Shown piece after piece: positions 36,329 to 43,644 of a stretch of 64,000 nt of DNA. The notes beneath the pieces are model-generated. The model searched no databases. It was not told where the DNA came from and saw only the letters and a list, made by a program, of their open reading frames with translations. The position numbers and the translations under genes were made by a program. The DNA is from Hydrogenovibrio crunogenus (GTDB taxonomy: Bacteria; Pseudomonadota; Gammaproteobacteria; Thiomicrospirales; Thiomicrospiraceae): the NCBI RefSeq assembly GCF_004786015.1, contig NZ_CP032096.1, positions 2,170,001-2,234,000 on the forward strand, written 5' to 3'. Each line of letters opens with the position of its first letter. Position 1 is the first letter of the stretch.

Positions 36329-36371
36329 CACCAACCCCACACCGACTTATTCCTAGCCTCTATCTTAAAAT

Positions 36372-36400
36372 AAAAAAGGCGCTCAATGAGCGCCTTTTTT
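36372..36400 (-). terminator. Intrinsic terminator of the polyferredoxin gene
   Basis: AAAAAAGGCGCTCA / TGAGCGCCTTTTTT arms with a short loop lie 21 bp after the stop of the minus-strand gene at 36422. It has T-runs on both strands. Confidence 0.85.
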
Positions 36401-36421: not shown

Positions 36422-37780
36422 CTACTGCGCTCTGGCCCAAAGCGTTAAAATGACCAATCCTAAATACACCCAAATAACCACCCCAGATGAAAAGTAAGCC
36501 ACACCCAGTCGAGTCCCCGACAAATTAAGTTGCTTCAGTTTTTGGTACAAAATCACACTGCTCACAATGACCGCAAGGAAATTAAAAAGGTTAAACAAAT
36601 GAATCCAGCCATCTCGATGGCTTGCCAGAGGTTTCATGACTGAATCAGAATTGATCAACCAATAATACGCATTTCCTAAATCCGGCGCATAGTGAATAAA
36701 GAAAAAACTCCCAATATGACTGAGCGCCCCAATCAACATCAAGGAGCCAAAAGCCAACCCAGCTGTTTCAAACACTTTCCAAAAATCAATTTGCGTGTAT
36801 CGACTGGTCAGCCACATGCCTCCCAAGGTCAAACTGAACGTCATAATGACCGCCATCAACAGCGCAACCAATCCAACCCAATCCATCATCGGAATGACGG
36901 GCATGACCATTTCTAACCAATTCCCCACTTGAAACCATGGCAGGCTCTCTTGAATCGGGCTGTGACCCAATGCATGGTGGAATCGCATGGCCATGGTAAT
37001 GACTGCCAAAAGTGTAATAAAGACCCAAATGGTCATTCGGTCTAACTGTTTCACCGGTTGAATTACTTGCTTGGCGAAAGAAGACACCTTCCACTGCACG
37101 GAATCACACGCTTGCGCACAGTCCATACAAAGCGTGCAGTCCTGCATATTATTCTTTTTCTCAAATAAATACGGGCGAAGATTCCACTGACAGGCTTTCA
37201 CACAATCAAAACTTCGACATGTCTGGCAATCAGACGACTGCGTTTCTAACCGGGCAAAACTGACCTTACCATAAGATTTAATCACCGATCCGATTGGGCA
37301 ACCGTAGCGGCAATAATCCATATTACGATACAAATAAAACCCGACCAACGCGATCATGGTCAGTACGAGAAAATACATCGCACTGACATAAGGCACTTTT
37401 AAGAAATCCGGGAAGACATAAACCGGCACCCAGTAGCTCAAGACCAACAACCCAAGCCCCCATGAACGATGCCGCATCCAATTCGGCATCAGTTTTTGAG
37501 GCCCTATCTTATTAAGGTACTTTCCAATAAAACTGTGCGGACAGACCGCGCAGAATAGCGGTCCAAACGTCACCATCGAGACCACTAAAAAGAACGGCCA
37601 AAAGAGAGACCAAAAAATGGCCACCGTATAAGGGTTGGCCGTTTCCGTCGGATACGTGATGCCAAAATAAACCGCACTGGAAAATAAAATAAGCACAGCC
37701 ATCCTAAGGGCGTTCAACATCCATGGATGACGCAAAATCGTTCCCAAAAAAGGCCAACGTAATAAATTATTTATTGCCAT
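36422..37780 (-). CDS. Membrane 4Fe-4S polyferredoxin (NapH/CcoG/NosR-like)
   Basis: A 452-residue protein with about nine membrane spans. Cytosolic cysteine motifs: CAVCPHSFIG between helices 2 and 3, YCRYGCPIG, then a ferredoxin-like domain with CQTCRSFDCVKAC and CTLCMDCAQAC (two clusters). The first two are the twin CxxCP-type motifs of the NapH/NosR/CcoG family, which move electrons across the membrane. The C-terminal half has five further helices with conserved histidines (RFHHALGH, SHIGSFFFIHYAPD), possible heme ligands. It starts 9 bp behind the TonB receptor gene, so a role in reductive use of the imported compound is likely. That is inference. Confidence 0.85.
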   Translation of the reverse strand: MAINNLLRWPFLGTILRHPWMLNALRMAVLILFSSAVYFGITYPTETANPYTVAIFWSLFWPFFLVVSMVTFGPLFCAVCPHSFIGKYLNKIGPQKLMPNWMRHRSWGLGLLVLSYWVPVYVFPDFLKVPYVSAMYFLVLTMIALVGFYLYRNMDYCRYGCPIGSVIKSYGKVSFARLETQSSDCQTCRSFDCVKACQWNLRPYLFEKKNNMQDCTLCMDCAQACDSVQWKVSSFAKQVIQPVKQLDRMTIWVFITLLAVITMAMRFHHALGHSPIQESLPWFQVGNWLEMVMPVIPMMDWVGLVALLMAVIMTFSLTLGGMWLTSRYTQIDFWKVFETAGLAFGSLMLIGALSHIGSFFFIHYAPDLGNAYYWLINSDSVMKPLASHRDGWIHLFNLFNFLAVIVSSVILYQKLKQLNLSGTRLGVAYFSSGVVIWVYLGLVILTLWARAQ

Positions 37781-37789
37781 GATCTTTCC

Positions 37790-39886
37790 TTAGAGTTGGT
37801 AACGATAATTTAATTGAATGTTTCTCGGGGCGCCGGGTGTATAAGCATAGGTTCCGCGCGTATCTTTCGAGACTTCTTCGGCATAACGCATGTCAAAAAC
37901 ATTATTGACATTCAATTGAAGCTTATGCTTTTTCATTTCATATCCCAGCATCATATTCGATACCATCTGATACCCATCATATTTTTCGCTATTGGCATCA
38001 TCGATATAATAACTGCCAAACCCTAACGCCTCCATTCGAGCTTGCCATTCATTCGATTGATACCCGACAAAAACGTTATACTGCTGTTCCGGAATAAAAC
38101 GCACTTGATTACCAGAATAATCATTACCGCTGTCCTCATATTCTAAATACTGGTAATCTTGCCAAGCAGCACTTCCTCCTAGCGTCACGGAAGGCGTTAA
38201 ACGATAGGAAGCGCTTAGCTCCGCACCACGCTTTTGCGTTTTCCCGGCATTCACATAATAAGTTGTCCAGCCATCTTTCACGCCAACAATCTCATCGGTT
38301 AAGTCTATCTGATACACCGCAACCGTCGTTGCCAATCTGCTTGCATTCAGCTTATAGCCCAATTCATACTGTAGTGCTGTTGACGCTTTGAGTTTATCTG
38401 CTTGACCATAAGCATAATTGGCGCTGACTTCGCTATCCGTCGGAGCCTGCTGTGCGCCACTTATTGTTCCATAAAGACGACTTTGCTTATTAAGCGCATA
38501 GTTCGCGGACACTTTTGGCGCAAACAAGTCATAACTGGCTTTATACGAATACGCTCCTTCACCGGCTTTATAACCTCCCGCTGCATAATCGAATGCATAA
38601 TACTGCTGACCTGAAATGTCCATATTCAAGTGGTCATAACGTAGCCCAGCCTCCAAAGTCCAATCGGGCGAAACCGAAACCGTTTGCTGGAAATAAGCAC
38701 CGCTCAATTGACTGCTTGCATCTTCTACTTGAGCCAGATCGCCTTTTTCATCAGACGAAATTTGAACAATACGCCCTGATGGAATGGTGGTGATATCACG
38801 ATATTTATATTTTTTACTATCGTCTCGAATATCCGCCCGCATCGTCAGCCCGAACACTTGGCTGGCAGGTTTGCCAAAGGCTGAGTGTTGACGGCTGAAC
38901 ATTAAATCTGTTCCGACAACATAATTATTTTTTGAATCATTGATAAACCCGGTCACCGGGTGAAGGTGTTCCCATTTGTTGACATAGAACTGAGGGTTAA
39001 ATTTAATGCCATTCCCCAGCTCTGTCTTATAACGGGTATTAAAGAACAATGTTTTACTGTCACGCGCACTGTGTGACCAAACTGACCCGGTATTGGCCTT
39101 ATCATTTAAGGTTTCTCCGGTGTTTTTATAGTAAGCAAACCCATCTTCATTCAATGAGCTTGGCAATTGCATATTGGATTCTTGATAGCTGAGCTCGGTT
39201 TCTAAGGTGCTGTCATCAGCAAAAAAATGTCCTTGCTTCACCGAAAACTGCGTGGTATCGAACTGATTATGTTCACGCCAATTATTATCTGTTTGGCGAC
39301 GAGAAAGCTGAACGGCAAAATTGTCATCATCTCCCGCCTGCCAGGTTTTATGAATCGCCGCATTACGGCTGGTTTCAGATCCTGCTCCCACTTTAAAATA
39401 ATCTTTTGAATCATCAAATACGGAAATGGATCGGACAGAGATAACCCCGCCACTGGCATTGGCGGCTTCAATGGAACCAGGTCCCTTAAACACTTCAACC
39501 GATTCCATATCATCAATATCAATGAAGTCGAAACGTGTAAAACTATCAGGGTCCGTCATCGGAACCCCATCTCGCATAACCATGATTTCACGCACACCAT
39601 AACGTGCCTTTAAACCAGCGCCTCGAATGATTAAACGAGAGTCATACCCACCGTTCTTACTCACCGCAATCACCCCGGGCATGGTTTTAATCACATCATT
39701 GATGTTACGGGCATTTTTATCTTCAATCGTTTTTCGATCAGCAACATCCACACTTTGAGACACATCTAAAGCTTTACGTTCTTCTTTGGTGGCGGTCACA
39801 GTAATGGCGTCTAACGTCGTTTGCGAAAAAGAAAAAGGGCTATACATCGCTGCTAACACAGCTAGTCCTACTTTTGAATGCTTCAC
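37790..39886 (-). CDS. TonB-dependent outer membrane receptor
   Basis: About 698 residues. A signal peptide (KHSKVGLAVLAAMYSPFSFSQ) is followed by a TonB-box region (LDAITVTAT), a plug domain (VIKTMPGVIAV, RLIIRGAG, VMRDGVPMTDPD, VEVFKGPGS) and a 22-strand beta-barrel ending in LNYRYQL with terminal hydrophobic residues. GTG at 39886 is preferred because GAGGA lies eight bases upstream and the signal peptide then starts properly; an ATG at 39910 has no ribosome site. The ligand cannot be read from sequence; an iron chelate or other metal complex is likely given the linked polyferredoxin. No convincing Fur box was found upstream. Confidence 0.9.
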   Translation of the reverse strand: MKHSKVGLAVLAAMYSPFSFSQTTLDAITVTATKEERKALDVSQSVDVADRKTIEDKNARNINDVIKTMPGVIAVSKNGGYDSRLIIRGAGLKARYGVREIMVMRDGVPMTDPDSFTRFDFIDIDDMESVEVFKGPGSIEAANASGGVISVRSISVFDDSKDYFKVGAGSETSRNAAIHKTWQAGDDDNFAVQLSRRQTDNNWREHNQFDTTQFSVKQGHFFADDSTLETELSYQESNMQLPSSLNEDGFAYYKNTGETLNDKANTGSVWSHSARDSKTLFFNTRYKTELGNGIKFNPQFYVNKWEHLHPVTGFINDSKNNYVVGTDLMFSRQHSAFGKPASQVFGLTMRADIRDDSKKYKYRDITTIPSGRIVQISSDEKGDLAQVEDASSQLSGAYFQQTVSVSPDWTLEAGLRYDHLNMDISGQQYYAFDYAAGGYKAGEGAYSYKASYDLFAPKVSANYALNKQSRLYGTISGAQQAPTDSEVSANYAYGQADKLKASTALQYELGYKLNASRLATTVAVYQIDLTDEIVGVKDGWTTYYVNAGKTQKRGAELSASYRLTPSVTLGGSAAWQDYQYLEYEDSGNDYSGNQVRFIPEQQYNVFVGYQSNEWQARMEALGFGSYYIDDANSEKYDGYQMVSNMMLGYEMKKHKLQLNVNNVFDMRYAEEVSKDTRGTYAYTPGAPRNIQLNYRYQL

Positions 39887-40057
39887 TTGGTTGGTCCTCA
39901 GTCCTATCATTTTTATTTTTAGCCCTATTCACAGGCCTATTAATTTCCACTGAAATTATAGGGATAAAGCAATTTAAAACGATTGAGTAACCTTGAGAAG
40001 AGTATGGAAAACTGAAGAAAAGGTTAAGTAATGCTTGTTAGATCAGTAATAAGGGCT

Positions 40058-42558: not shown

Positions 42559-43644
42559 ATGATACTATTCGAGAACTTTCTGTCTTTAGCTCTAGAGTCA
42601 GCACCCTGGTTAGTGCTGGGGTTAGTGCTGGGTGGACTCATCAAAACATTACTGCCCATTGATTTTCTCAATAAACATTTACAAGCTAATGATTTAAGTG
42701 CCATCACCAAAGCCACTATACTTGGCGCTCCTTTACCACTGTGCTCTTGTGGCGTTGTTCCAGCAGCCGTAGGGTTGAGAAAAGCAGGCGCCTCCAAATC
42801 AGCCACGGTGTCTTTTTTAATTTCCACACCGGAAACAGGCGTTGATTCAATCAGTGTGACCTATGCATTAATGGGGCCGGTGATGGCAATTGTAAGAGCC
42901 ATTAGCGCCCTTTTCTCAGCATTTTTTACCGGGCTGTTGGTACTGATTTTTGGCAAAGAACGGCCTGCAAAACATGAACAACAAGAAGCTGAGATCCCTT
43001 CGTCTTGTTGCCAAGCCGAATCTAGCCGCTGCGATTCAACACCAAAAACAACCTCTACCCGTTGCTGTGGCAGCAACGATCATTCGAGTCAAACATCATG
43101 GTTGCAAAATTCATGGAAAGGCATTCGCTACGCCTTCAGTGACATGTTAGCTGATATCGTGGGTTGGTTAACCATAGGGTTAATTTTTGCCGCCATCGTA
43201 CAAACCTACATTCCGACAGATTTCTTAACCCAATGGGGCTCAGGGTTAGTGGCCATGATTATTATGCTGTTAATCGGTATTCCGATGTACGTCTGTGCCA
43301 CCGCTTCAACACCTATCGCTGTGGGGTTGATTTTGGCAGGCATTTCCCCTGGCGTAGCCTTGGTTTTTTTATTATCAGGTCCCGCCACCAACATCGGCAC
43401 ATTGGGTATTATTTCGCAACTACTGGGACGAAAAACCATGTGGCTTTATTTAGCCGGTACCGTTTTTTCCGCTTTGGCTGCCGGCTTGGTTTTCGATGCA
43501 CTGCTCGCACAATGGAACTGGAACCTTGTCACCTCAATGCAAGCTCATCATGAAACATTACCAATTTGGCTTCAAGCTTTAAGCTTGCTTATCCTCTTTT
43601 TGGCGGCACTGAAAATTTATTGGCACAAATGGTCAGCTAAATGA
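42559..43644 (+). CDS. SO_0444-type Cu/Zn efflux permease
   Basis: A 361-residue permease of the ArsP/YraQ (DUF318) superfamily with two four- to five-helix halves. Each half has a motif block: GAPLPLCSCGVVPAAVGLRKAGAS in the first and GIPMYVCATASTPIAVGLILAGISPG in the second. The linker (about residues 150-175) is cysteine-rich (SCCQ, SRCD, TRCCG) and probably binds metal. The layout fits the SO_0444 family of Cu/Zn efflux transporters. AGGAAG precedes the ATG. It is a single-gene unit with its own candidate MerR-type promoter and a terminator. Substrate is by family analogy only; an arsenical permease is the alternative. Confidence 0.85.
   Translation: MILFENFLSLALESAPWLVLGLVLGGLIKTLLPIDFLNKHLQANDLSAITKATILGAPLPLCSCGVVPAAVGLRKAGASKSATVSFLISTPETGVDSISVTYALMGPVMAIVRAISALFSAFFTGLLVLIFGKERPAKHEQQEAEIPSSCCQAESSRCDSTPKTTSTRCCGSNDHSSQTSWLQNSWKGIRYAFSDMLADIVGWLTIGLIFAAIVQTYIPTDFLTQWGSGLVAMIIMLLIGIPMYVCATASTPIAVGLILAGISPGVALVFLLSGPATNIGTLGIISQLLGRKTMWLYLAGTVFSALAAGLVFDALLAQWNWNLVTSMQAHHETLPIWLQALSLLILFLAALKIYWHKWSAK

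Follow-up and report, generated by a model that had tools for sequence, protein, structure and literature searches.

A conserved pair of a TonB-dependent receptor and a membrane polyferredoxin in Hydrogenovibrio crunogenus: a probable copper-acquisition module with proposed periplasmic copper reduction

The acquisition of copper by bacteria is poorly known. In Bordetella pertussis, the TonB-dependent copper transporter CrtA is encoded in one operon with the PepSY_TM protein CrpH, an inner-membrane candidate periplasmic copper reductase in which His is essential (PMC12914433, PMC13038864). CrtA-CrpH (2026) is the only pairing of a receptor with a reductase for copper that we found described. 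We analyzed a stretch of 64,000 nucleotides from Hydrogenovibrio crunogenus (contig NZ_CP032096.1, positions 2,170,001 to 2,234,000; hereafter the window), in which the gene for a TonB-dependent receptor is followed by a gene for a membrane polyferredoxin (PFD). No description of a receptor-PFD pair was found in literature searches. Based on sequence comparison, we put the probability that the two proteins form a copper-acquisition module with periplasmic Cu(II) reduction at roughly 0.6; the probable function of the pair is to take up copper and to reduce it, so that respiratory enzymes can be built. If so, it would be a second, unrelated solution to the pairing of a copper receptor with a reductase, and it suggests a function for an unannotated family of polyferredoxins. 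The arrangement of a receptor with an envelope metal reductase is already known; what the PFD pair adds is an unusual electron source.

CrtA-CrpH is the closest parallel, with a receptor and a candidate inner-membrane periplasmic reductase in one operon serving heme-copper oxidases, and the likeness extends to the ExbBD-TonB, PCuAC, and ScoI genes associated in some loci. The two systems differ in their parts, however. The PFD is a polyferredoxin unrelated to CrpH, apparently fed from the cytoplasmic side, and not a PepSY_TM protein; CrtA receptors are marked by a conserved H358 site together with a PepSY_TM neighbor, whereas the partner of the window receptor is the PFD. In sequence, the window receptor is closer to PqqU (237 bits) than to PDB entry 9rvq (732 residues, 99.5 bits), which we presume to be CrtA from a title naming only a TonB-dependent receptor. 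Control appears to differ as well, with repeats of the response-regulator type at the PFD pair, where no CruR was seen.

The receptor gene lies first and is separated from the PFD gene by 9 bp, and the PFD gene is followed by a hairpin with a T-run, from which we conclude that the pair is a two-gene unit (Table 1). An earlier note on this DNA had described a TonB-dependent receptor 9 bp from a nine-helix polyferredoxin, and the genes, gap, domains, and AlphaFold2 (AF2) models agree with that description. Conservation outside this strain, which the note had set beforehand as the decisive comparison, extends over three phyla. Of 12 genomes from the window's genus, 6 carry PFD (the window's own counted); it was also detected elsewhere in the family, in 23 of 249 Campylobacterota genomes, in 28 of 136 Aquificota genomes, and in one distant gammaproteobacterium, always as a single copy. 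The carriers are mostly sulfur- or hydrogen-oxidizing bacteria, that is, chemolithotrophs dependent on copper oxidases and often found in sulfidic, copper-poor water. The receptor gene nearly always precedes PFD where the contig allows this to be seen (gap of 8-13 bp in 15 related loci; two Campylobacterota loci, L088 and L106, were not resolved by the layout of open reading frames). Both genes are present at 41 loci, and the receptor and PFD distance matrices are correlated (Mantel r 0.87, 0 of 2000 permutations). The pairing is therefore not due to chance, and the two-gene unit is of ancient origin. A search for third partners, which the note had recommended, yielded ExbB, ExbD, TonB, NosL, and DsbD_2; genes for the first three lie behind or beside the pair in many loci.

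The promoters of the pair carry direct repeats with a period of 11 bp: identity at lag 11 was 0.371, compared to about 0.31 at other lags, and control DNA farther upstream gave 0.279 at lag 11; chains of three TYAA copies occurred in 5 of 42 promoters versus 0.06 in shuffled sequences. Direct repeats with this spacing are typical of response regulators of the OmpR/PhoB family. In Campylobacterota the site takes the form TTAACAY-N4-TTAACAY and is common to operons with quite different receptors. A search of 14 genomes with this motif gave 26 sites, versus 11 for the reversed control. Six of the 26 belong to PFD operons themselves; about 15 of the others are placed like promoter elements, and eight of these precede copper genes at less than 110 bp. 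The eight targets are a PCuAC gene with adjacent SCO1 (L196), three OprC-type receptors (L197, followed by ccoN; L201; L206), three NosL genes (L200, L203, L205), and a DsbD_2 gene followed by ccoNOQP (L199). Most of these target families were checked against Pfam and NCBIfam; the OprC-type receptors among them have TIGR01778 as the best family, below its cut-off, and carry the motif CPNRMDP (CxxxM). Since the motif search did not presuppose copper, the enrichment in copper genes constitutes independent evidence. Another site (position 1425 of L204) lies between the gene of a response regulator (722-1384, divergent) and that of a small secreted protein. Orthologous response regulators (42-52% identity) are encoded beside the pair at L091 and near an extended operon at L098; the L204 regulator is 42-43% identical to these two. 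The three OmpR-type proteins are candidate copper-responsive regulators in Campylobacterota, and a copper-linked two-component regulon is proposed in this phylum. At L207 (G617), a repeat site was observed before a gene with weak similarity to cytochrome bd subunit I, which may encode a copper-free oxidase that is induced under copper shortage.

In Thiomicrospiraceae, CTTAA or CTCAA recurs at intervals of 11 bp in up to four perfect copies, and perfect arrays of three or four copies are found in relatives of the window (L004, L006, L008, L010). Repeats were detected at 4 of 16 OprC-type receptor promoters of the family and at 9 of 224 controls (p 0.007), the control set including two PFD promoters; the promoter of the OprC-type receptor in the window's own genome carries repeats of the same kind. 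A search for VTYAA repeats within the family returned mostly chance sites and no clear regulon. The repeats upstream of the window receptor are probably a degenerate version of the conserved response-regulator-like site. Membership in a copper regulon, judged by shared repeats, is thus clear in the Campylobacterota orthologs, weaker in the window's family, and degenerate in the window. A site in common with copper genes and the NosL fusions of PFD described below make membership of the pair in a copper-acquisition regulon the most likely reading. A separate observation concerns the only OprC/NosA-type copper receptor gene of the window's genome (L087:6790-8902; G000:C1, about 1730789-1732901), which shifts frame after the plug domain, is full-length in relatives, and lies beside intact SCO1-like and PCuAC-like genes; the gene may be broken, or the shift may stem from a sequencing error.

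Four Campylobacterota PFDs (L092, L093, L096, L107) are fused to a C-terminal NosL domain with a CxM motif. NosL is a periplasmic chaperone that binds Cu(I) (PMC6530538). The fusion, the DsbD_2 partner, and a motif site near nosZ could also be explained if the electrons of PFD served cuproenzyme assembly, namely reductive maturation of the CuA thiols or of CuZ in N2O reductase, with the receptor merely feeding copper. Low-potential electrons would suit the activation of such clusters, and in Campylobacterota PFD is associated with NosZ (13 of 23 PFD-bearing genomes versus 62 of 226 others, p 0.007, phylogeny not corrected). This explanation, which shares the assignment to copper, is nevertheless improbable in our estimation: NosZ is missing from 10 of the 23 PFD genomes, and the strict partner of PFD is the receptor, not an oxidase or nos gene. 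Service to NosZ as the sole purpose of PFD was rejected, as only 13 of 23 PFD genomes have NosZ.

The anatomy of PFD is consistent with electron delivery to the periplasm. Fer4_5 is the sole Pfam domain recognized (above cut-off), and the cysteine motifs place the protein among membrane polyferredoxins of the Fer4_5 class. The 12 cluster cysteines are conserved without exception in 58 of 58 homologs and would hold up to four 4Fe-4S clusters. The N-terminal half, with its Fer4_5 CxxCP motifs and two ferredoxin-like clusters, resembles NapH/MauN and NosR through weak matches (TIGR02163, 26.1 bits versus a cut-off of 213, residues 70-228 only). In contrast to these proteins, PFD falls far below the cut-offs and has an extra C-terminal domain of four membrane helices with conserved histidines; it is not NosR, as the protein starts at the first membrane helix and has no N-terminal periplasmic FMN-binding domain. 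It is not a PepSY_TM reductase of the CrpH, FpvG, or FoxB type either (no PepSY match in Pfam). A Yip1 match of Pfam in the C-terminal half of two PFD variants was dismissed as weak similarity of a membrane domain. The AF2 model (pLDDT 83) has about nine membrane helices, and the positive-inside bias (K+R per residue 0.136 inside, 0.047 outside) predicts cluster loops inside the cell and a C-terminus in the periplasm, in agreement with the NosL domains fused to this end in relatives. Conserved histidines in the last half of the protein, noticed earlier, were recovered in the alignment of 58 homologs: H268 (95%) and H269 (98%) at the periplasmic end of helix 5, and H355 (95%) in helix 7. The periplasmic placement of the conserved histidines and of the C-terminus, where most homologs carry a His-rich tail predicted to lie on that side, fits the delivery of electrons to the periplasm. 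A sequence search of the PDB with PFD gave zero matches at E<=1, and Foldseek and VIA-align returned generic helical bundles only, an outcome that does not establish a new fold.

A reductive metal system for the pair is thus plausible, as the earlier note had proposed by analogy with CcoG. Its hint at copper is probably right in view of the promoter and fusion evidence, whereas the analogy itself is poor. The cupric reductase CcoG/FixG/RdxA is similar in being a membrane protein with ferredoxin clusters tied to copper and the cbb3 oxidase. CcoG reduces copper in the cytoplasm, however, and not in the periplasm (PMC13038864), and PFD had no CcoG model among its NCBIfam matches and differs in its C-terminal, His-bearing membrane domain.

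The receptor belongs to the TonB-dependent receptor superfamily (Plug and 22-strand barrel), with Pfam matches to Plug (PF07715, 78.5 bits) and the TonB barrel (PF00593, 160.3 bits) and an AF2 model (pLDDT 86) whose fold scores Z 36-40 versus FecA, BtuB, and FhuA. Its nearest solved relative by sequence and fold is PqqU (YncD), followed by FecA and siderophore receptors, yet it scores only 147.7 bits on the PqqU equivalog model NF041535 (cut-off 1200). To our knowledge, PqqU of E. coli has no PFD partner. The OprC/NosA receptors (TIGR01778; PMC8610252) resemble it in promoter site and presumed copper cargo, and this type is also present in the window's genome. The window receptor, in contrast, has no TIGR01778 match (NCBIfam, E<=0.001), and its orthologs have no invariant CxxxM; an HxH loop motif stands in place of CxxxM-HxM. 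This motif, W313-x-H315-x-H317-P318-V319, is invariant in 41 of 41 orthologs and, by strand order in the AF2 model, is placed at the top of strand 7 and in extracellular loop 7-8, where its histidines would bind the metal chelate. The corresponding region of CrtA holds ligand residues on strands 7-9 (PMC12914433). On sequence grounds the receptor is a distinct family with PqqU/FecA-like features.

The resemblance to FecA and PqqU, together with TonB-siderophor as the best family (220.7 of 223.5 bits), would suit a ferric-siderophore module, in which a xenosiderophore enters through the receptor, PFD reduces Fe(III) in the periplasm by means of low-potential electrons, and Fe(II) passes through FeoB. 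FeoAB is encoded in the window's genome, and an ABC partner would not be needed; as stated in the earlier note, no ABC transporter adjoins the pair in the window, and FecCD of this genome lies in a heme-like cluster far from the pair. The remaining receptors encoded in this genome resemble B12, thiamine, Cu, and possibly Zn types, and low-potential donors such as a double-cubane protein with its ATPase would suit tight ferric siderophores. Receptor similarity and low-potential supply thus speak for iron, in conflict with the promoter data: no significant Fur box was found in the 42 orthologous promoters or in 9 variant promoters, although feoA in the window's genome does carry a Fur-like palindrome. 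Iron limitation, under which the note had suggested following expression, is accordingly not supported as a signal. With the promoter site shared with copper genes and NosL fused to some PFDs, we regard siderophore reduction as unlikely, if less so than cuproenzyme assembly. In an observation on another receptor, a TonB receptor gene at L085 (7250-9622) is preceded by a leader resembling a TPP riboswitch and followed by a PnuC-like gene, and probably serves thiamine uptake.

Copper as the subject of the pair is well supported, since the promoter signal is shared with copper-supply genes, and copper is the presumable cargo. In the proposed copper module, the receptor would take a Cu(II) chelate through the outer membrane using TonB energy, while PFD would accept low-potential electrons on the cytoplasmic side, from a donor such as ferredoxin, via four Fe-S clusters. 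The electrons would cross the His-bearing membrane half, probably with the aid of heme b or a metal site, and Cu(II) would be reduced to Cu(I) at the periplasmic face, a step suggested by the anatomy of PFD, releasing copper from its chelator. Cu(I) would then be handed to periplasmic chaperones (the PFD-fused NosL in some Campylobacterota, PCuAC/SCO1 elsewhere) for delivery to the cbb3 oxidase and, where present, N2O reductase. An OmpR-type response regulator acting on the 11-bp direct repeats would control the pair together with other copper genes; we infer both the identity of the regulator and the direction of regulation. Several observations weigh against this assignment. The strict repeat test was negative for the window's own promoter, where the repeats are degenerate, and about half of the non-PFD motif matches are not recognizable copper genes. 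The receptor is not recognized by the OprC model and resembles PqqU more than any copper receptor, and the window PFD has no C-terminal His tail. Finally, Cu(II) can be reduced without a very low potential, yet a double-cubane-type protein is encoded in seven operons, and some Aquificota pairs adjoin hydrogenase or hyp genes, a hint of nickel.

The seven operons are from Campylobacterota (L096, L097, L098, L101, L102, L103, L107) and comprise a divergent receptor, usually DsbD_2, a longer PFD, a second polyferredoxin, and the double-cubane-type protein, with a BadF-type activator ATPase in six of the seven. At L096, the double-cubane-type protein scores 345.7 bits, just below the NF040772 cut-off of 350, and the ATPase 232.8 bits (cut-off 125.4). 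Taken together, these genes resemble an ATP-driven supply of low-potential electrons directed to the periplasm, and they hint at a possible function of double-cubane proteins in the cell envelope. It is tempting, if still doubtful, to see in PFD a periplasmic copper reductase of a new class, which would be driven by electrons drawn at the ferredoxin level from the cytoplasm; in these seven genomes ATP hydrolysis, through the double-cubane-type protein, mostly a BadF-type ATPase, and the second polyferredoxin, would power their delivery to receptor-imported metal.

In Aquificota, the pair is followed at L119 and L121 by a DUF4198 gene and a beta-barrel-like gene, with hypA-like and hypF-like genes further on, while at L123 and L127 it precedes an operon for a group-3b-like NiFe hydrogenase. 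These neighbors, and a weak resemblance to DUF4198 at the C-terminal end of fused PFDs, would be expected if the pair took up nickel (or mixed metal) for NiFe hydrogenases. Such a function is very improbable, as the association is confined to a handful of Aquificota, nickel import requires no reduction, and the promoter signal points to copper genes.

Table 1. Coordinates of the receptor-PFD pair and associated elements in the window
Feature	Coordinates	Strand	Basis
TonB-dependent receptor	37790..39886	minus	Plug and barrel Pfam domains, AF2 model, PDB match, conserved PFD partner
Nine-helix polyferredoxin (PFD), 452 aa	36422..37780	minus	Fer4_5, alignments, AF2, topology
Hairpin and T-run after PFD (aaaaaaggcgctcattgagcgcctttttt), probable terminator	36370..36400	minus	Read directly from sequence
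Imperfect repeats CTTAA/CTTCA/CATAC/CTCAA/CTCAA, spaced 9-11 bp, upstream of receptor	39983..40028	minus	Read from sequence

The open reading frame of the receptor extends over 37790-39910 (706 aa), and its homologs begin at residue 9 (39886, GTG), in agreement with the end coordinate given in the earlier note. The pair is flanked by a DUF188 gene upstream and, downstream, by a small open reading frame with CPxC-type motifs and then pdxH. The genome is a single 2.45 Mb contig of a gammaproteobacterium that is Thiomicrospira-like to judge from the relatives recovered, and an Rfam scan of the window detected zero RNA families. A gene for a Cu/Zn efflux transporter of the SO_0444 family (445 bits on NF033936, cut-off 300) is located about 2.6 kb from the pair at 42559-43644 on the plus strand.

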